Part shown: one piece after another, positions 6,449 to 51,881 of the stretch
Numbering within the stretch: position 1 is the stretch's first letter
How the letters are laid out: every line of letters begins with the position of its first letter
From: a virus
IMG/VR virus record: IMGVR_UViG_3300047276_000715
Span: 1 to 62,480 of that record
Strand: one strand, 5' to 3'
Length of the DNA stretch: 62,480 bases
Translations under genes and position numbers: made by a program
Notes under the pieces: model-generated
What the model was told of the DNA's origin: nothing
Databases searched by the model: none
The model's input: the letters and a program-made list of their open reading frames with translations, nothing else

Positions 6449-6459
6449 GCCAATTCAAT

Positions 6460-6543
6460 GGAGGCATGGCGGAATTGGTAGACGCAACGGACTTAAAATC
6501 CGTAAGCTGTAAAGCTGTGGGGGTTCAACTCCCCCTGCCTCTA
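6460..6543 (+). tRNA. tRNA-Leu (anticodon UAA)
   Basis: The acceptor stem GGAGGCA pairs with TGCCTCT (first pair G-U) and the discriminator is A6543. The anticodon stem-loop GGACTTAAAATCC shows TAA as the anticodon. A variable arm (about 6501-6516) and a T arm (GGGGGTTCAACTCCCCC) complete a type II tRNA, as expected for Leu. CCA is not encoded. Phage tRNAs of this kind may serve AT-rich phage codons, here UUA. Confidence 0.95.
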
Positions 6544-6545
6544 TT

Positions 6546-6618
6546 GGGGGATTAGCTATCTGGTGAAAGCGTTCGACTCATAATCGAAACTAGGCTGGTT
6601 CGATCCCAGTATCCCCTA
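6546..6618 (+). tRNA. tRNA with CAU anticodon (Met or Ile2)
   Basis: GGGGGAT pairs with ATCCCCT (first pair G-U). The D arm is GCT...AGC, the anticodon arm TTCGACTCATAATCGAA shows CAT, and the T arm is CTGGTTCGATCCCAG. Only 2 bases separate it from tRNA-Leu. CAU tRNAs can be elongator Met or, after lysidine modification, Ile reading AUA; an Ile2 role would match an AT-rich phage gene set, but the sequence does not settle it. CCA is not encoded. Confidence 0.9.
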
Positions 6619-6862
6619 CTGAATTTTCCTCTATAAAGCTCATATACTTGCTAAGCGAAAACTCTTCGCTCATATTTTTTGCTGCTTCCATTATTGCAAA
6701 GTGCGCTCGGCTGTTGTTGTAAGAAGCCTGATGGCTGAGAAGAAGCGCCATTTCAAGCAAGCCTCGATAGTCGCCCTTTGTAAATAGTTCCTTCAGCTTT
6801 CGTGAGTTAAGCGTCTCCTGAAGCTCGTCTTCGGGGCGATAGCTTAAATCGGACATGCTCAT
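6590..6862 (-). CDS. Hypothetical protein overlapping a tRNA, 90 aa
   Basis: The body of the protein (RKLKELFTKGDYRGLLEMAL and a following helical part) looks like a real small all-helical protein, and ATG 6862 or 6856 are natural starts. Its last residues, GDTGIEPA, are read from the antisense strand of the CAU tRNA, a pattern known from many mistaken ORF ends over tRNAs. The gene may therefore be real but its end be fixed by the tRNA beneath it. It is the only minus-strand gene within the left plus-strand block. Confidence 0.5.
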   Translation of the reverse strand: MSMSDLSYRPEDELQETLNSRKLKELFTKGDYRGLLEMALLLSHQASYNNSRAHFAIMEAAKNMSEEFSLSKYMSFIEENSVGDTGIEPA

Positions 6863-7034
6863 CAATGGCAGACCATGAACGAGCCTAACGGGCCATGGCT
6901 TGAAAGTCCATGCGAGGAAAATGGATGGAAATGGCGTGTTTACGGAATTGGCATGATGTGGGATCATGAACAGGAGTGGCAGGCCAGATGGAAACTGCAC
7001 TCAATGCAAGTCTCTGCTGGAACCCTCAAGGACA

Positions 7035-7922
7035 ATGGCCAATGACTCAGTGAGCATCTATCTGAACGCAATTGGCAAATATCCGTTGCTCACTAAATCG
7101 CAAGAAGTCCTTCTTGGCAGCCAGATTCAAGCCTGGATCGCGATACGGTCGAAAGACCGCTCCACCTATACACATGAAGACAAAATAGTCGAAAGGCTTG
7201 GCAAAAGAGCAAAAGATAAGTTCGTTACATGCAACCTGAGACTTGTTGTAAATATAGCAAAAAAGTATGCAAGGTACTGCAAGACTCTTGACTTGATGGA
7301 TTTAGTTCAGGAAGGAAATATTGGACTGATTAGAGCAGTAGAAAAGTTTGACCCTACACGAGGCTATGCAATGAGCACTTATGCCTACTGGTGGATCAGA
7401 CAGTCAATTCAACGTGCCATTCAATTTGGCGACCTGACAATTCGCCTTTCAATCAATGTTCACGAAGCTATTGCAAAAATTAAAAAAACAATTGAAGAAT
7501 TATCTAGGGAAACTGGAGTAGATCCAACGCTTGAAGAAGTTGCAGAAGCATCTGGCATCGAACTTAACGAGATTAAGCTGATACTTGCTGCCCCAAAAAC
7601 CACTTTTAGCCTTGATAAACGCATTGGCGGCCAAGAAGATGGACTGAATATCATGGAGACAATTCCCGACGAGAAAAACTTAAACACACTTGAGGAGATT
7701 GAGCTAGAGACAAACATGGCCGATATGACTTTTGCGGTAAACAACTATCTTGACGAGAAAACCAAAACAGTGATTCTTTCCAGAAACCAAGAAACGCCTA
7801 TTCCCTGGAAAAAACTCAGCAAGGAGATGGGCGTCTCCATCGAAAAACTTCAGGCGATGGAAAAAGATGGCATAAAAAAATGCTCAATGTTGTTGAGCAT
7901 TAAAAGAAAATTGAGCATCTAA
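7035..7922 (+). CDS. Sigma-70 family RNA polymerase sigma factor
   Basis: 295 residues from ATG 7035, chosen because AAGGA lies 5 bases upstream and the family starts here (SVSIYLNAIGKYPLLT, region 1.2). Region 2 is well kept: LRLVVNIAKKYA, LMDLVQEGNIGLIRAVEKFD, YAYWWIRQSIQRAIQ (about 68-130). Region 3 is recognisable (VDPTLEEVAEASGI). Region 4 (about 245-290) is short and divergent: the usual FGL..G turn is missing and the recognition helix reads SIEKLQAMEKDGIKK. In region 2.4 the usual RQ-x-x-TR reads RQSIQR, a T to Q change at a residue that contacts the -10 element in E. coli. It could redirect host polymerase to late promoters. Confidence 0.88.
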   Translation: MANDSVSIYLNAIGKYPLLTKSQEVLLGSQIQAWIAIRSKDRSTYTHEDKIVERLGKRAKDKFVTCNLRLVVNIAKKYARYCKTLDLMDLVQEGNIGLIRAVEKFDPTRGYAMSTYAYWWIRQSIQRAIQFGDLTIRLSINVHEAIAKIKKTIEELSRETGVDPTLEEVAEASGIELNEIKLILAAPKTTFSLDKRIGGQEDGLNIMETIPDEKNLNTLEEIELETNMADMTFAVNNYLDEKTKTVILSRNQETPIPWKKLSKEMGVSIEKLQAMEKDGIKKCSMLLSIKRKLSI

Positions 7923-10214: not shown

Positions 10215-10222
10215 AGCCTAGC
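10215..10222 (-). promoter_or_regulatory. Late-type -10 element before lysis cassette
   Basis: GCTAGGCT on the minus strand, 26 bases before the holin-like ATG; fits the GCTANNNT pattern shared by late genes. No -35 box seen. Confidence 0.45.
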
Positions 10223-10319
10223 GACCTTGCCCGCGCAGCTTCTTGCGTCCGTGGCTGGGCTTGGAGCGGGTGCCGTTGCCTTGACGGGTGTTAAGCTGAC
10301 CATGGTTTTGGCGTGTTTC

Positions 10320-10907
10320 ATGGCTACAACTCGCAGTATCAAGCCACTGCCCCCTCTGCGCGAATTGGAGAAATGGTTTGCTATTGATGGATCGGATCTT
10401 GTTTGGCGTACCAGTTATTTCAAAGAACTTATAGGTAAGCGCGCTGGATATATGCGACCCGATGGATATGTCGAGATTAGAAAGCAAAACAATAAAATGC
10501 TTGCACATAGAATTGCTTACTACATTGCCACCAGGGAAAATCCTGGTAATTACTTTATAGATCATATAGACGGAAATCCGTCTAACAACTGTCCCAGTAA
10601 TTTACGAATGGCTACCGCAACGGAAAATCTGCGGAACTGCAGAAGATTGCGTAGAAACAATACGTCTGGCCAATCAGGCGTAACGTACGCCGTAGTTGGA
10701 GGCATCGAATACTGGAAGGCTTACGTAGTTGTCAAGGGCAGGCAGCTTCATCTTGGATCATACGCAACCAAAGAAGCGGCGATTGCCGCTAGAGAAGTTG
10801 CTGAAAAATTCACTTACGGAAAATTTGCCCCTATCGCCCTTGACCCCGAAGAGGTTTTTTGCCTCTTCGCCGAGGACAAGAATTTTGACCGTAGCCATCC
10901 CGTGTAG
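10320..10907 (+). CDS. HNH homing endonuclease with AP2 domain
   Basis: 195 residues from ATG 10320 (ATG 10302 is also possible; the frame extends upstream without family similarity). It has an N-terminal DNA-binding-like part, an HNH core (AHRIAYYIATRENPGNYFID followed by HIDGNPSNNCPSNLRMAT) and a full AP2-like end (VVGGIEYWKAYVVVKG, LHLGSYATKEAAIAAR). It is the only plus-strand gene between the lysis and tail genes, which suggests a mobile insertion between conserved late genes. It is a distant relative of the 872-1381 endonuclease, not a recent copy. Confidence 0.85.
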   Translation: MATTRSIKPLPPLRELEKWFAIDGSDLVWRTSYFKELIGKRAGYMRPDGYVEIRKQNNKMLAHRIAYYIATRENPGNYFIDHIDGNPSNNCPSNLRMATATENLRNCRRLRRNNTSGQSGVTYAVVGGIEYWKAYVVVKGRQLHLGSYATKEAAIAAREVAEKFTYGKFAPIALDPEEVFCLFAEDKNFDRSHPV

Positions 10908-23527: not shown

Positions 23528-23535
23528 AGTCTAGC
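23528..23535 (-). promoter_or_regulatory. Late-type -10 element before tape measure gene
   Basis: GCTAGACT on the minus strand, 25 bases before the tape measure ATG and directly after the GT terminator, so the tail-tip block can be restarted here. Confidence 0.5.
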
Positions 23536-25536: not shown

Positions 25537-26307
25537 TCAGGCGCTTTGTGACAGATCGACGGAGACGTTCGCGGTTGGACGGAAGTTGATGGCCACGCTG
25601 ATCGCGTCATCGGGGTTCACGTTCAGGCTCGCGCTGGTCAGCACAACTTCCATCGAGATTGAGCGTGAAGCGGTTTCACTCACCGAGCCACTGACAACAA
25701 CGCGATCAACATAAAGACGCATTGCGGCGCCAACCTGCTTGCGCTGAAGCACGTCTTCGACCATCCGGTTCGCCAGAGCGGCGTCCTCATCGGTCATGTA
25801 GACGTTCGCGGTGCCATTGCCATCGGCGAAGCCGGTGATGTAGGTCTTGAACGGTGCGTACTGACCTGCATCCTGGCCAATGGTGGTAACGTCGATTTCG
25901 CTTCGAGTAATTTCAAAGCTCCAATCGCGCACCTGAGAAACAAGAGCGTAGTCCGCGTAATCAACACGGAATTCGTTCGGGGCAGTTGCAGTACCAGTGG
26001 TGGTCAGGGTGACAGAAGAACCGCCAAGGGTCGCGGAAACTTTCAGAACACCAGTACCAGGGGTGTACTGAATGACGTAGTAAGTGGTGCCAGCGGTAAG
26101 GCCACCGGGAAGCGTGCCGGCGACAGTACCACCTTGAACGTTGTAAACAGCAAACTTGACGGGATCGCCAACCTTGAGATTCAGGTACGACTCAACAACG
26201 ATTTCGTTGGTTGCAGTGGTAACGTTGGCAGGAGCAAAGGTGCCAGTGGTGCCGGCGGGCTTATACGAAAGAGCGCCAGAAGTGCCGGAAAGGACAGTTG
26301 CGGGCAT
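25537..26307 (-). CDS. Major tail tube protein
   Basis: 256 residues. The N-terminal 115 residues contain Thr/Gly/Val-rich strands (GGLTAGTTYYVIQYTPGTGV) like an Ig- or fibre-type insertion. The rest has the tail tube pattern: VRDWSFEITRSEIDVTTIGQ, then FKTYITGFADGNGTANVYM. One tube protein per phage, sited between the terminator-of-tail and chaperone genes. It carries a strong terminator behind it, in keeping with high expression, and a GCTAGTCT element 45 bases upstream. Confidence 0.85.
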   Translation of the reverse strand: MPATVLSGTSGALSYKPAGTTGTFAPANVTTATNEIVVESYLNLKVGDPVKFAVYNVQGGTVAGTLPGGLTAGTTYYVIQYTPGTGVLKVSATLGGSSVTLTTTGTATAPNEFRVDYADYALVSQVRDWSFEITRSEIDVTTIGQDAGQYAPFKTYITGFADGNGTANVYMTDEDAALANRMVEDVLQRKQVGAAMRLYVDRVVVSGSVSETASRSISMEVVLTSASLNVNPDDAISVAINFRPTANVSVDLSQSA

Positions 26308-26351: not shown

Positions 26352-26359
26352 AGACTAGC
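26352..26359 (-). promoter_or_regulatory. Late-type -10 element before tail tube gene
   Basis: GCTAGTCT on the minus strand, 45 bases before the ATG of the tail tube gene. Confidence 0.42.
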
Positions 26360-27312: not shown

Positions 27313-27690
27313 TCAGCTAAGCCTCCCCACAATCGAATGCAGGATAGCGCTATCACCCCTCGGTGACAGCACGCCGACTATCTTTGCTGTTTTTGAAACG
27401 CCGCCTTGTGTGTATCTGATCGAATCAGTAGTGCGCGGAAAATAACCAGAAAGCTCGCTAGCCGCAATGACGAATTTTACGTCAGTCATTTGATACAGCC
27501 CCTGCAGCTCCTGTGGCTTCAGTTGCGCAAAAACAACTTTTACGGGGATTTCAGTGGCAGCGCCAGAAAGAACTCCTGTTGTTGGATTGTAAGTTGGGCT
27601 TGCGTTCGCCTTGATATAAGTAGCGCTTGATCCAAACTCCGAAAGCAGCGGGCCTGGAATTGAACCAAAAATGTCGTCAACAAGAGACAT
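27313..27690 (-). CDS. Head closure / stopper-like protein
   Basis: 125 residues, mostly beta. The segments ATYIKANASPTYNPTTGVLS and EIPVKVVFAQLKPQELQG fit the small beta-barrel stoppers that close the portal channel. Neighbouring connector genes on both sides support this; sequence evidence alone is weak. Confidence 0.6.
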   Translation of the reverse strand: MSLVDDIFGSIPGPLLSEFGSSATYIKANASPTYNPTTGVLSGAATEIPVKVVFAQLKPQELQGLYQMTDVKFVIAASELSGYFPRTTDSIRYTQGGVSKTAKIVGVLSPRGDSAILHSIVGRLS

Positions 27691-29712: not shown

Positions 29713-29720
29713 AGAGTAGC
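29713..29720 (-). promoter_or_regulatory. Late-type -10 element upstream of capsid gene
   Basis: GCTACTCT on the minus strand, 132 bases before the capsid ATG. Longer leader than the other late genes; the intervening bases hold no gene. Confidence 0.35.
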
Positions 29721-30850: not shown

Positions 30851-30858
30851 ACTGTAGC
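30851..30858 (-). promoter_or_regulatory. Late-type -10 element before DUF6321 gene
   Basis: GCTACAGT on the minus strand, 22 bases before the ATG and directly behind the scaffold terminator. Confidence 0.5.
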
Positions 30859-31765: not shown

Positions 31766-33499
31766 CTACATGGTAGCACCATCAGCTTCATTTGCTTCAA
31801 CAGCGCCTTCGGTCATTTCGCGATCATGTCCTTCGCTGAGCATGTGTGAGTTATCGACCGGCACCTGGCCTCTGTTTGGGGATTGCGCAGCATTGCCACC
31901 GCCAGCACCAACACCAATGTCCTTCGCGGTTTCACTGCCATCAAGCCCCATGCTTTCCAGGAGATCATGAACGCTGAAGTTCGGGAGACCTTCAAACATT
32001 TCGCCCGCCTCAAGCATTTTCAAGAACATTTCAATTGTGATAACATTACTATCCTTGAACAGCGTATTAAGAGCAAGAACCTGCTGCGAATGCAGCTTGA
32101 CAGGAATGAAGTTCTTGCTAATTGTAATTTGCACTTTCTCAATTGAACGATATGCCGAGGCGTACAGCAGGGCGCGATTGATCGAGTCTTGCAGCCCTTG
32201 AACCAGTACGGCGAGCTGAGAATCGCTTTGTGAACGATCAAGCAACTTTGCAAAACCAGATTCGGCCTGTGTTTTGCTGGTTGTCATTGCAACAGCAGCA
32301 AGTCGTTCCATCGCCGCTTCAATTCGACGCAGATTTTCGAGCGTAACCGAGGCTCCTTCCATAGAAGCACTCATCAAATTGAATTTTGCGTCTGGATTTT
32401 GCGAGAACATCGCACGTCCAGCACCTGCCTTGATTTCGTCATCTGGCCTGACACCAGTTCCGGTAAGGATTGGCGAGGAGGTGAGGTGAATTGTCTCTGC
32501 AAGATCAGCAGAAACACTCCAATGATGCAAGTTAAGGCGTGCAATATCAAAAAGAAGTGGGCGGGCGCGGAAATATGCCTCTTTTTTGCCTCCAAACACC
32601 GGGACAAAGGGAATGAATGACACGGAAAGATAACTTGTCTCCTCAAGACGGTATTTATCAACCGAATCGGTCCCATTCAGCTTTGTGTAAAGACGATGAC
32701 GAACGCGCTGTCCCTCAACAAAGCTTTCTGGTGTGTCAGAAAACTCAGAGATTGTATTATCTGCCATGTTTACAATATCGTAAACACGAACGGCAGGGAC
32801 AACTTCTTCAAAAAACTCGTTATTCTCGCTCTTGCGACGAACTTCTGTCTTCAGTCGCAGGTAGATCGGGAATGCACCAAAGATGTTTTCCGTGCCAACT
32901 TGAGCATTGAAGACATCATATCTACACTCAAGCACTTGATCATAGCGCATAAGCACAAGATATGGACGAGGATTTAGCCTTTTCTCCTCGCTCGCGCTCA
33001 AATTTGCTGGCAGCTTCGGGTATTCGACCCAGATCCCGGACACACCGCCATCCAGGGCCTCGGTGAAGGCCTCCTTCGAGAACGAGACGAGAGAATGCCC
33101 CTCCAGGTCAACGTCATCGAAGAAATTTCCCCATTCAGGAGGGATCATTTCAGGCACAGCAACACCTTTTCGCAGCGCCGTACCAGTGACTAGATCGCGA
33201 AGATGTGAGTAGTAATTCTGAAAGCTACTCTGTGATCGTGTTTTGCGAACTTCGTAACTCTGATTTTCTTCTAAATAGTCTTTTGGAAGGTATTCTTCCG
33301 ATGCCTCAAGTAAGTAGTATTCAGGAAGCGTGCAAAAACGAATAGGGGCGAGACGAGAAAACTGCTCAGCTTGCTCAAGCGAGTAGGCATCAACACCGGA
33401 TACCTCCTCAAACGCCTGTTCGTATTCAGGATGACGACGCTCAAACGGAAGTGTCAGGTTATCGGTTGTCGGAACCAGCGAATTAGGGATGAGCGTCAC
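31766..33499 (-). CDS. Portal protein (DUF4055-like)
   Basis: 577 residues. The N-terminal third (VSGVDAYSLEQAEQFSRLAP, FQNYYSHLRDLVTGTALRKG), the SGIWVEYP segment and RPYLVLMRYDQVLECRYDV follow the DUF4055 portal family; the region after residue 300 is helical with the expected long stem helix. The portal ring is the DNA gate and the anchor for the large terminase. Lies between terminase and scaffold. Confidence 0.88.
   Translation of the reverse strand: MTLIPNSLVPTTDNLTLPFERRHPEYEQAFEEVSGVDAYSLEQAEQFSRLAPIRFCTLPEYYLLEASEEYLPKDYLEENQSYEVRKTRSQSSFQNYYSHLRDLVTGTALRKGVAVPEMIPPEWGNFFDDVDLEGHSLVSFSKEAFTEALDGGVSGIWVEYPKLPANLSASEEKRLNPRPYLVLMRYDQVLECRYDVFNAQVGTENIFGAFPIYLRLKTEVRRKSENNEFFEEVVPAVRVYDIVNMADNTISEFSDTPESFVEGQRVRHRLYTKLNGTDSVDKYRLEETSYLSVSFIPFVPVFGGKKEAYFRARPLLFDIARLNLHHWSVSADLAETIHLTSSPILTGTGVRPDDEIKAGAGRAMFSQNPDAKFNLMSASMEGASVTLENLRRIEAAMERLAAVAMTTSKTQAESGFAKLLDRSQSDSQLAVLVQGLQDSINRALLYASAYRSIEKVQITISKNFIPVKLHSQQVLALNTLFKDSNVITIEMFLKMLEAGEMFEGLPNFSVHDLLESMGLDGSETAKDIGVGAGGGNAAQSPNRGQVPVDNSHMLSEGHDREMTEGAVEANEADGATM
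31770..31777 (-). promoter_or_regulatory. Late-type -10 element before scaffold gene
   Basis: GCTACCAT on the minus strand, 25 bases before the scaffold ATG, inside the portal gene end. Confidence 0.42.
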
Positions 33500-33520: not shown

Positions 33521-33528
33521 ATTGTAGC
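33521..33528 (-). promoter_or_regulatory. Late-type -10 element before portal gene
   Basis: GCTACAAT on the minus strand, 22 bases before the portal ATG. No TTGACA-like box 17 bases upstream. Confidence 0.5.
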
Positions 33529-34971: not shown

Positions 34972-34979
34972 ACTATAGC
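34972..34979 (-). promoter_or_regulatory. Late-type -10 element before terL
   Basis: GCTATAGT on the minus strand, 22 bases before the terminase ATG. No -35 consensus at the expected place. Confidence 0.52.
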
Positions 34980-36514: not shown

Positions 36515-36522
36515 ACCCTAGC
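36515..36522 (-). promoter_or_regulatory. Late-type -10 element before methylase operon
   Basis: GCTAGGGT on the minus strand, 28 bases before the ATG at 36487. Same octamer as at 35416. Confidence 0.48.
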
Positions 36523-37696: not shown

Positions 37697-37777
37697 GTCC
37701 TGACCGATCAGCTTAACTTATCATTATCGGGCGTGCCACCTGAAGATACTTTCAATTTGTGTTGCAAATAAAACAAC

Positions 37778-37881
37778 GATTGCTATTTTACACTTAGCAA
37801 CTTACTAAATAACATTTAGCGATTGCTGTTTTACATTTAGCGATTGCTGTTTTACATTTAGCGATTGCTGTTTTACATTTA
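37778..37881. repeat. 21-bp tandem direct repeats
   Basis: Three perfect head-to-tail copies of a 21-bp unit at 37819, 37840 and 37861 (core CGATTGCTGTTTTACATTTA), with a diverged copy starting at 37778. The minus strand reads it as a heptapeptide repeat (LNVKQQS), but no complete gene with a start is convincing. Non-coding repeats are the simpler reading. Confidence 0.85.
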
Positions 37882-37972
37882 GCAATTTAGCATTGAATTT
37901 ATAAATAAAATTAAATCTAGGTTCCAGGAATTTACACCTTAAAATAGCGGTAGATTTTGCAGGTTGGCAACC

Positions 37973-38090
37973 ATGAAAGGCAACCTGGCAACCATGAAAG
38001 GCAAGTAACCTGCAAAATGAAAGGCTTGGTGACAATAATGAAAGGCAAAATGAAAGGCACGCGGCAACAATGAAAGGCAAAATGAAAGGC
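37973..38090. repeat. Array of seven ATGAAAGGC repeats
   Basis: ATGAAAGGC occurs at 37973, 37994, 38017, 38038, 38050, 38070 and 38082; an eighth copy lies at 38341. Spacings are 21, 23, 21, 12, 20 and 12 bases, close to one or two DNA turns, so a protein could bind copies on the same face. Each copy also looks like a start codon followed by Lys-Gly; the longest small frames are 11-18 codons. Confidence 0.85.
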
Positions 38091-38139
38091 CAGGCGCACC
38101 TAAAATAGGCTTGAATCTAGAAGGTTGTGGCAATAAATA

Positions 38140-38350
38140 GACCGTGAAAGTACGGTTTCCATGCCTAAACTATACCTTGAAAATACAGGTTTCACCAACA
38201 AATAGACTATGAATGGCGAATTCAAACAAGGCAAATGGCCTATGAATGGCAAATTTAGGCGAGGCAAACAATCTATGAATGGCAAAATCATACAGGGCAA
38301 ACAATCTATGAATGGCAAATTTAAGTAAAGCAAATAATTTATGAAAGGCC
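38140..38350. repeat. 33-bp direct repeat array
   Basis: Five units with exact 33-bp period have cores ATGAATGGC at 38209, 38242, 38275, 38308 and ATGAAAGGC at 38341. Two more diverged units precede them near 38144 and 38177. Units share GGCAAACAATCTATGAATGG as their best-kept part. In the plus strand the array reads as 11-residue repeats (MNGKFRRGKQS) in a 39-codon frame 38209-38328. It lies directly downstream of the RepL-like gene and near the small terminase gene, so an origin or a packaging site is possible. Confidence 0.88.
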
Positions 38351-38356
38351 AAATAA

Positions 38357-41913: not shown

Positions 41914-41973
41914 ATGCAAGAGATTTTCTCCCCCGCATGACTTCATTATAGCACCTTTCGCACTACTTGTCAA
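41914..41973 (-). promoter_or_regulatory. Consensus promoter with 5' leader hairpin (P1)
   Basis: Minus strand TTGACA (41968-41973), 17 bases, TATAAT (41945-41950). The transcript begins with a hairpin at 41914-41938: a 10-bp stem (ATGC..GCAT, some G-U pairs) and loop GAAAA. The -35 is preceded by ATAAATGC, shared by the other early promoters. Confidence 0.85.
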
Positions 41974-44788: not shown

Positions 44789-44858
44789 GCAAGGAAGAAA
44801 AGGAGATTTTCTCTCCCTTGCATACAGTCATTATAGCACCTTTTCAGGTACTTGTCAA
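44789..44858 (-). promoter_or_regulatory. Consensus promoter with 5' leader hairpin (P2)
   Basis: Minus strand TTGACA (44853-44858), 17 bases, TATAAT (44830-44835). Leader hairpin within 44789-44821: outer GCAAGG/CCTTGC and inner GGGAGA, loop GAAAA, TCTCC; loop identical to P1. Confidence 0.85.
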
Positions 44859-46314: not shown

Positions 46315-46386
46315 ATACAGGCGAAAGGAAAGAGTGCTCTCTCGCCTGTATGATGTTACTGTAGCACGCAATCGCTTGCGTGTCAA
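46315..46386 (-). promoter_or_regulatory. Promoter with long leader hairpin (P3)
   Basis: Minus strand TTGACA (46381-46386), 17 bases, TACAGT (46358-46363). Leader hairpin 46315-46351 with a 10-bp perfect stem (ATACAGGCGA with TCGCCTGTAT). Confidence 0.8.
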
Positions 46387-47636: not shown

Positions 47637-47699
47637 CGGCGAAGCAGTTTTTTCTCCGCCGTATGATCATAGTATAGCACAAATAGTGCTACCTGTCAA
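47637..47699 (-). promoter_or_regulatory. Promoter with leader hairpin (P4)
   Basis: Minus strand TTGACA (47694-47699), 17 bases, TATACT (47671-47676). Leader hairpin 47637-47661, CGGCG pairing CGCCG with an A-rich loop. Confidence 0.82.
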
Positions 47700-48418: not shown

Positions 48419-48478
48419 AAGCAACAGATTTCCCCCGTTGCTTAAGACTATTATAGCACGCTATGCGCTACTTGTCAA
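48419..48478 (-). promoter_or_regulatory. Consensus promoter with leader hairpin (P5)
   Basis: Minus strand TTGACA (48473-48478), 17 bases, TATAAT (48450-48455). Leader hairpin 48419-48443, AAGCAAC pairing GTTGCTT, loop GGGGGAAATCT. Confidence 0.85.
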
Positions 48479-50980: not shown

Positions 50981-51037
50981 GTATCGCCCATCTCTGAGCG
51001 ATACGTTCATTATAGCACGTTACTTGCTACCTGTCAA
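50981..51037 (-). promoter_or_regulatory. Consensus promoter with leader hairpin (P7)
   Basis: Minus strand TTGACA (51032-51037), 17 bases, TATAAT (51009-51014). Leader hairpin 50981-51004, GTATCGC pairing GCGATAC. Confidence 0.85.
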
Positions 51038-51852: not shown

Positions 51853-51881
51853 AGTATAGCATCAAAGCCCTAGGCAGTCAA
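51853..51881 (-). promoter_or_regulatory. Early promoter without leader hairpin (P8)
   Basis: Minus strand TTGACT (51876-51881), 17 bases, TATACT (51853-51858), short leader with GAGGA then ATG. Shares the ATAAATGC upstream word. Confidence 0.8.

Follow-up and report, generated by a model that had tools for sequence, protein, structure and literature searches.

Which promoters would be read by a phage sigma factor that has the build of a host sigma factor and altered residues where region 4 normally meets the -35 box? The question is raised by a gene in a 62,480-base IMG/VR virus record, which we analysed as a whole and call the window. We show here the anatomy of the encoded protein, its conservation, two classes of promoter in the phages concerned and the association of these classes with the long form of the sigma factor. 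According to our analysis, the protein is quite probably a phage late sigma factor recognising a lone extended -10 element.

The sigma gene and its family

7035..7922, plus strand: phage sigma factor, 295 amino acids and stop codon, with regions 1.2, 2 and 3 and a rebuilt region 4
7377..7439, plus strand: region 2.4 segment (about residues 115-135), where Q126 corresponds to E. coli T440 and Q130 to E. coli A444
7749..7892, plus strand: region 4 (about residues 239-286), with a three-residue deletion in the loop between 4.1 and 4.2, from residue alignment and AlphaFold2

The sequence-only reading of this DNA had placed the open reading frame correctly (7035-7922, plus strand, 295 amino acids). 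It is the final gene of the window's rightward module; a longer ATG start lies at 6966, and the proteins of relatives begin at the position equivalent to 7035. Regions 1.2, 2 and 3 are kept, as that reading held, each exceeding its Pfam cut-off (39.1, 71.5 and 51.2 bits, respectively). The region 4 match, at 14.0 bits, falls below its cut-off of 24.1, and among four other members scanned L035 reaches 18.6 bits, L018 reaches 13.1, and L042 and L015 are without a listed region 4 match. Among curated families the cyanobacterial RpoD/SigA subfamily (TIGR02997) matches best, with 237.3 bits and a cut-off of 384.5 that is not reached; this makes a cyanobacterium the likely host of the window virus. 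Among named isolates the nearest proteins are cyanosiphovirus sigma factors, with 36-47% identity across regions 1.2-3, about 70% of the protein, and a search of the genome contigs for a host copy of the sigma returned three distant matches only.

An IMG/VR scan found 96 relatives, 80 of which were kept. Loci L006-L042 (37 loci) encode full-length or nearly full-length relatives; four of them were collapsed or dropped as identical proteins, and there are 33 distinct long-form sequences, the window's included. Of the remaining loci, L043-L085, L043 itself encodes part of the long form; twelve others were translated, and these proteins, with 185-191 amino acids, end before region 4. The maximum-likelihood tree (43 rows; host references were plasmid-borne sigma factors and E. 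coli) places 15 long members in one clade with support 100/100 and 10 short sigma factors of the 187-residue type in a separate one with 100/99. The long clade, with the window protein near its base, stands apart from cyanobacterial, cyanosiphoviral and 187-residue phage sigma factors alike. Genomes G008 and G009 (loci L112-L117) have a second, very different sigma gene of 303-304 amino acids directly before the first.

Regions 2.4 and 4

The earlier observation that region 2.4 reads RQSIQR where E. coli has RQAITR holds: the window has WWIRQSIQR and E. coli RpoD has WWIRQAITR. T440 is replaced by Q in 32 of 33 long-form proteins and A444 likewise, and both positions presumably face the DNA at about -12 to -14. 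W433, W434 and Q437 of the -10-reading segment are invariant (33/33), H455 is kept once in 33, and the E458 position is D or E in 32/33.

Around residues 584-589, region 4.2 of the E. coli protein contacts the -35 box. Counted over the 33 distinct long-form proteins, including the window's, in E. coli RpoD numbering, R588 is replaced by Q in 32 and kept in one (L035), Q589 is kept in none, and E585 is lost from 30 and kept in three. Position 584 is R in 22, K in nine and I in the window protein, and most family members have basic residues at 584 and 586. L573 has become W throughout (33/33), R562 and E591 are retained in all 33, and three residues are missing from the loop after R562. The window protein has W258 at L573 and I269, Q273 and A274 at R584, R588 and Q589; the claim that its region 4 is short and has lost the recognition-helix residues is thus borne out by three fewer residues at the R-F-G loop and the absence of most of the usual residues. 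Mean identity in region 4 is 15% between family and hosts, 39% among eight hosts and 40% between the window and its family. With a host region 4 profile built from 12 references, which themselves score 91-112 bits, the family reaches at most 14.4 bits, three cyanosiphovirus sigma factors 42-45 and that of S-LBS1 6.8. One of the 12 host-type references, a Trichormus plasmid sigma, also deviates at 584-589, and such changes are therefore not unique to these phages.

Alignment of region 4 with normal sigma factors by profile had been named in advance as an outcome against the idea of an altered region. It does align, with an hhalign probability of 91% over 56 columns (best of 50 column shuffles 11%, reversed columns 6.6%), but its DNA-reading residues are changed. 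Over 29 pairs, dN/dS is 0.024 in region 1.2, 0.025 in region 2, 0.065 in region 3 and 0.062 in region 4, and every member whose end falls on its contig retains region 4. Decay of the region is ruled out by this purifying selection together with its retention in all complete-ended members. To describe region 4 as weakened is thus misleading, in view of the profile homology, the conservation across the family and the dN/dS value.

The AlphaFold2 model of the window protein, made from a 30-row alignment, has helices at 218-238, 241-250, 258-265 and 269-293, the last one long; block pLDDT is 82-88 from residue 231 to 290, pTM is 0.50 overall, and residues 189-217 are uncertain. Chains of transcription complexes fill the first 50 places of the Foldseek list, each aligned over 289-349 columns. 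A helix-turn-helix is the predicted fold of region 4, which, going by residue alignment, is a retained and selected domain whose DNA-reading positions are altered.

Two classes of promoter

Contigs of 12 relatives, 29-69 kb long, were compared with the window, and their gene order is the same: the sigma gene ends the rightward module, genes for lysis, tail, head, portal and terminase run towards it on the opposite strand, and past the terminase comes another leftward module, made up of small genes. The words late and early are assigned here by gene content and not by timing. At 37777-38354 of the window, where the late and the leftward early module join, there are degenerate tandem repeats (a 21-base unit five times; 33- and 66-base units), which could be an origin or a protein-binding array.

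Gapped 6-mers were scanned with no prior motif in 403 zones upstream of leftward genes of 13 syntenic genomes, and GCTANNNT emerged as the leading motif, the highest-ranking 6-mers being GCTANNNTG (63 against 11.9 expected) and GCTANNCT (56 against 9.8); the scan of 187 rightward zones gave nothing comparable. The late set comprised 257 zones of 12 genomes (G007 was excluded as a near copy of G006), the early set 231 zones of nine genomes. Late zones contain GCTANNCT 39 times against 6.7 expected, with a maximum of 15 in 100 Markov resamplings and none on the opposite strand, and they are not enriched in TTGACA (7 against 8.6) or TATAAT (2 against 2.9). Early zones contain TTGACA 57 times against 18.1 expected, TATAAT 25 against 5.8, GCTATAAT 20 against 0.3 and GCTANNCT 11 against 5.8. 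The motif GCTANNNT is present in 71 of 257 late zones, from 0/14 in G008 to 10/26 in the window, and 186 zones are without it. The window's late zones carry it on the sense strand in 10/26 and on the other strand in 0/26; over the whole window it occurs 72 times against 96 expected, that is, below chance, and its copies are concentrated just upstream of late genes. The candidate late promoters are:

10215..10222, minus strand: GCTAGGCT
23528..23535, minus strand: GCTAGACT, 32 nt upstream of the tape measure gene
26352..26359, minus strand: GCTAGTCT, orthologous site in 7/7 genomes, 49-53 nt upstream
27341..27348, minus strand: GCTATCCT
29713..29720, minus strand: GCTACTCT, upstream of the major head protein gene
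30851..30858, minus strand: GCTACAGT, follows a terminator-like stretch
31770..31777, minus strand: GCTACCAT, upstream of the scaffold gene; motif in 8/8 genomes
33521..33528, minus strand: GCTACAAT, upstream of the portal gene; motif in 6/8 genomes
34972..34979, minus strand: GCTATAGT, upstream of the terminase large subunit gene; absent in five other genomes examined
36515..36522, minus strand: GCTAGGGT

The early module of the window has the following predicted two-part promoters:

51853..51881, minus strand: TTGACT-17-TATACT
51009..51037, minus strand: TTGACA-17-TATAAT
48450..48478, minus strand: TTGACA-17-TATAAT
47671..47699, minus strand: TTGACA-17-TATACT
46358..46386, minus strand: TTGACA-17-TACAGT
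44830..44858, minus strand: TTGACA-17-TATAAT
41945..41973, minus strand: TTGACA-17-TATAAT

The genomes are related, and their sites are therefore not independent; once sites with similar flanks had been filtered out at 60%, 62 late sites remained of 76 and 33 early ones of 63. A TTGACA-like element (at least five of six matches, spacer 16-18) accompanies 2/62 late sites (0.6 expected) and 13/33 early sites (0.5 expected). No column upstream of the late motif exceeds 0.21 bits (n = 62), and within 75 nt no gapped 5-6-mer rises above the null (top 19/62, null 17-20); the same test on the early sites does recover their -35. No hidden upstream element at the late promoters came out of these column-information and gapped-mer tests. 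Position -8 is C in 30/62 late sites and +1 is a purine in 48/62; for the other copies of the motif on the same strand within the module the figures are 31/140 and 80/140.

Conservation of the sites and control phages

Orthologues of the gene starting at 26307 have the motif 49-53 nt upstream in 7/7 genomes, while its NN varies (GT, AC, AC, CG, CG, CC, GC). It precedes the scaffold gene in 8/8 genomes, the portal gene in 6/8, the terminase gene in 1/6 and four other orthologous genes checked in 0/7. The tape measure gene has it 31-32 nt upstream in G000, G005, G006, G009 and G012, and the N-termini of the tape measure proteins are left unaligned by tblastn across genomes. Held-out contigs (97 zones, excluding L009 as a near copy of L008) contain GCTANNCT 11 times against 2.9 expected (maximum of 100 resamplings 8) and, made non-redundant, 7 times against 2.2 (maximum 6); GCTANNNT as a whole gives just 13 against 9.3.

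Six cyanosiphoviruses without the long-form sigma (S-H1, MED4-184, S-CBS1, S-CBS3, KBS-S-2A and S-LBS1, the last four in part) have GCTANNCT 6 times against 5.8 expected, and 15 loci with the 187-residue sigma 6 times against 7.3, neither being an enrichment; both strands and every module contributed zones to these counts. Taken alone, S-H1, a phage with no sigma homologue, gives 3 against 0.9. A chance motif is ruled out by the de novo scan, the strand control, the resampling, the held-out contigs and the control phages. G008 has the motif in 0/14 late zones, with one copy 37 nt upstream of an orthologue and with poorly called gene starts, and its sigma (L035) is the sole keeper of R588, with the best region 4 Pfam score (18.6 bits) of the five members scanned; this single case, where R588 is kept and the late zones are without the motif, fits the pairing of sigma and motif. 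In S-CBS3 (L002, about 14277) and S-CBS1 (L003, about 12103) we noticed CCTAGGTA upstream of late genes, perhaps another late promoter motif, belonging to phages in which region 4 of the sigma is still normal.

What reads the late promoters

The suggestion of the sequence-only reading, that GCTANNNT late promoters lacking a -35 box would go with a factor that reads chiefly the -10, is supported at the sequence level: residues at the -35-contact positions are changed throughout the family, the motif was recovered de novo, the second element is absent from late and present at early sites, and the motif stands at fixed distances upstream of orthologous late genes, without enrichment where the long-form sigma is missing. 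We infer from this that the long-form sigma is the reader of the late promoters, as well as the timing of their use and the role of region 4.

It could be argued that a host sigma, acting on extended -10 promoters or belonging to group 2 or 3, reads the late promoters, and that the phage sigma serves other promoters or competes. Extended -10 promoters lacking a -35 do occur with host sigma factors, and the host-like early promoters share GC at -14/-13 (GCTATAAT), so that the host sigma may tolerate or use those bases. Such an explanation seems unlikely to us, as the enrichment of the motif tracks the long-form sigma and is missing in cyanosiphoviruses without it, the late -10 (GCTANNCT) is unlike the early TATAAT, which is unenriched in late zones, and the changes at 440 and 444 in region 2.4 are near-invariant in the family. 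The phage sigma, for its part, may also read early promoters.

A little less likely still is a region 4 re-targeted to some other upstream sequence, the second element of late promoters being degenerate or variably spaced. Purifying selection on the region (dN/dS 0.062), the predicted helix-turn-helix with its long last helix and the basic 584 and 586 of most members would suit such re-targeting; the 62 sites with no upstream column above 0.21 bits, and the gapped 5-6-mer search that found nothing above the null within 75 nt while recovering the early -35, speak against it. That the protein is an ordinary host-derived group 2 sigma, recently picked up, with region 4 drifting and no special role, we regard as very improbable: its closest curated family is indeed cyanobacterial RpoD/SigA, but those 237 bits are below the family cut-off of 384.5, the proteins form a separate clade (100/100) under purifying selection, and the same changes are common to 37 loci, a family-wide pattern that contradicts recent acquisition.

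It would then be logical to propose a late sigma acting through the lone -10 element as follows. Host RNA polymerase with a host sigma would read the leftward early promoters (TTGACA-17-TATAAT); the phage sigma, made from the end of the rightward module, would then attach to the host core enzyme by way of region 2, which is conserved, and the new holoenzyme would open the leftward late promoters, which have a single extended -10 of consensus GCTANNCT and would need no -35. Region 4 would stay folded and selected without reading a -35, and its most probable remaining task is docking on the polymerase or binding a phage co-factor.

Relation to known systems

In T4, late promoters consist of a single -10-like element, with no -35. 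Its gp55, which serves late transcription together with gp33 and gp45, is likewise a phage protein of the sigma-70 family that directs late genes, the late role in our case being read from the genes. It is very small, and its domain 4 is replaced by a separate gp33, while the window sigma holds regions 1.2-4 in one chain; with 295 amino acids and a region 4, it is not the short sigma without domain 4, paired with gp33 and a sliding clamp, that defines the gp55 family, and short of a profile search neither of those two partners came to notice. The 187-residue IMG/VR sigma factors form a clade separate from the long form, and their loci have no GCTANNCT enrichment. According to one paper, gp33 takes up the usual binding place of sigma domain 4 on the beta flap, and gp55 with gp33 makes a split sigma, the authors asking why no fused late sigma exists (PMC2988020). 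The promoters of phiEco32 gp36 are single-element, which has been linked to the missing region 4 homology of gp36 (PMC8948821, in excerpt). The gp36 motif is tAATGTAtA and that excerpt gives gp36 no recognisable region 4, whereas here region 4 is recognisable, predicted to be folded, and selected. Predictions exist for phage 7-11 (PMC4331800, in excerpt), and sporulation-type phage sigma factors are also described (PMC9429907, in excerpt). Cyanosiphovirus sigma genes have been reported, with no promoters assigned to them in the available parts of the papers (PMC6157547, PMC3751600).

The statement that full host-like sigma factors are rare in siphoviruses is fair, with the proviso that they are known in S-CBS1, S-CBS3, KBS-S-2A and S-LBS1. 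These four have the sigma gene similarly placed, beside converging lysis and structural genes; three of the four proteins keep R584, E585, R588 and Q589, that of S-LBS1 keeps none, and unlike the phages with the long-form sigma they show no GCTANNCT enrichment.

The late consensus GCTANNCT looks similar to C(-13)TANNCT, the form of RpoS promoters. In RpoS a lysine at position E458 reads C(-13); the alignment shows K there in RpoS, but D or E in 32/33 of the family.

The late promoters described here have one element and no -35, late being taken from gene content, and precedents are T4 gp55 and phiEco32 gp36; a full-length sigma whose region 4 is both conserved and rebuilt appears to be a new case. 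Our literature search, mostly outside subscription papers, found no paper on the long-form sigma family, its promoters or their pairing. What is intriguing is a whole host-like sigma paired with single-element late promoters, with clade-wide selection on region 4 after its -35-reading residues were replaced. Two jobs of region 4, reading DNA and holding the polymerase or a partner, may here be made separable in a natural protein, and one protein with one 8-base motif would make a compact system in vitro. For this group of uncultured phages, probably of cyanobacteria, the analysis also yields a map of predicted gene regulation.

Small genes beside the sigma gene

6590..6856, minus strand: 88-residue ORF, divergent from the sigma gene, strongly conserved beside it in relatives
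6875..7045, plus strand: 56-residue micro-ORF with its end over the start codon of the sigma gene; conserved in the seven relatives read

The divergent neighbour, helical and 77-88 amino acids long, occurs at 38 IMG/VR loci; it has no match in Pfam or among phage records, none in PHROG better than E = 0.2 and no structural one better than E = 6.7. The micro-ORF, which falls under the 60-residue ORF cut-off, has the core WRVYGxGMVWDHxQEWQA, and its overlap with the sigma start is possibly a translational coupling. No promoter of the sigma gene itself could be defined, the conserved upstream stretch being the micro-ORF. Either the divergent protein of 77-88 residues or the 56-residue product could be a co-activator or partner of the sigma factor.

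Just before the sigma locus lie tRNA-Leu(taa) and tRNA-Met(cat) (6459-6619, plus strand). Two plus-strand ORFs, 872-1381 and 10227-10907, resemble, judged by eye, homing endonucleases of the HNH/AP2 type, and the latter runs against the direction of the late module.
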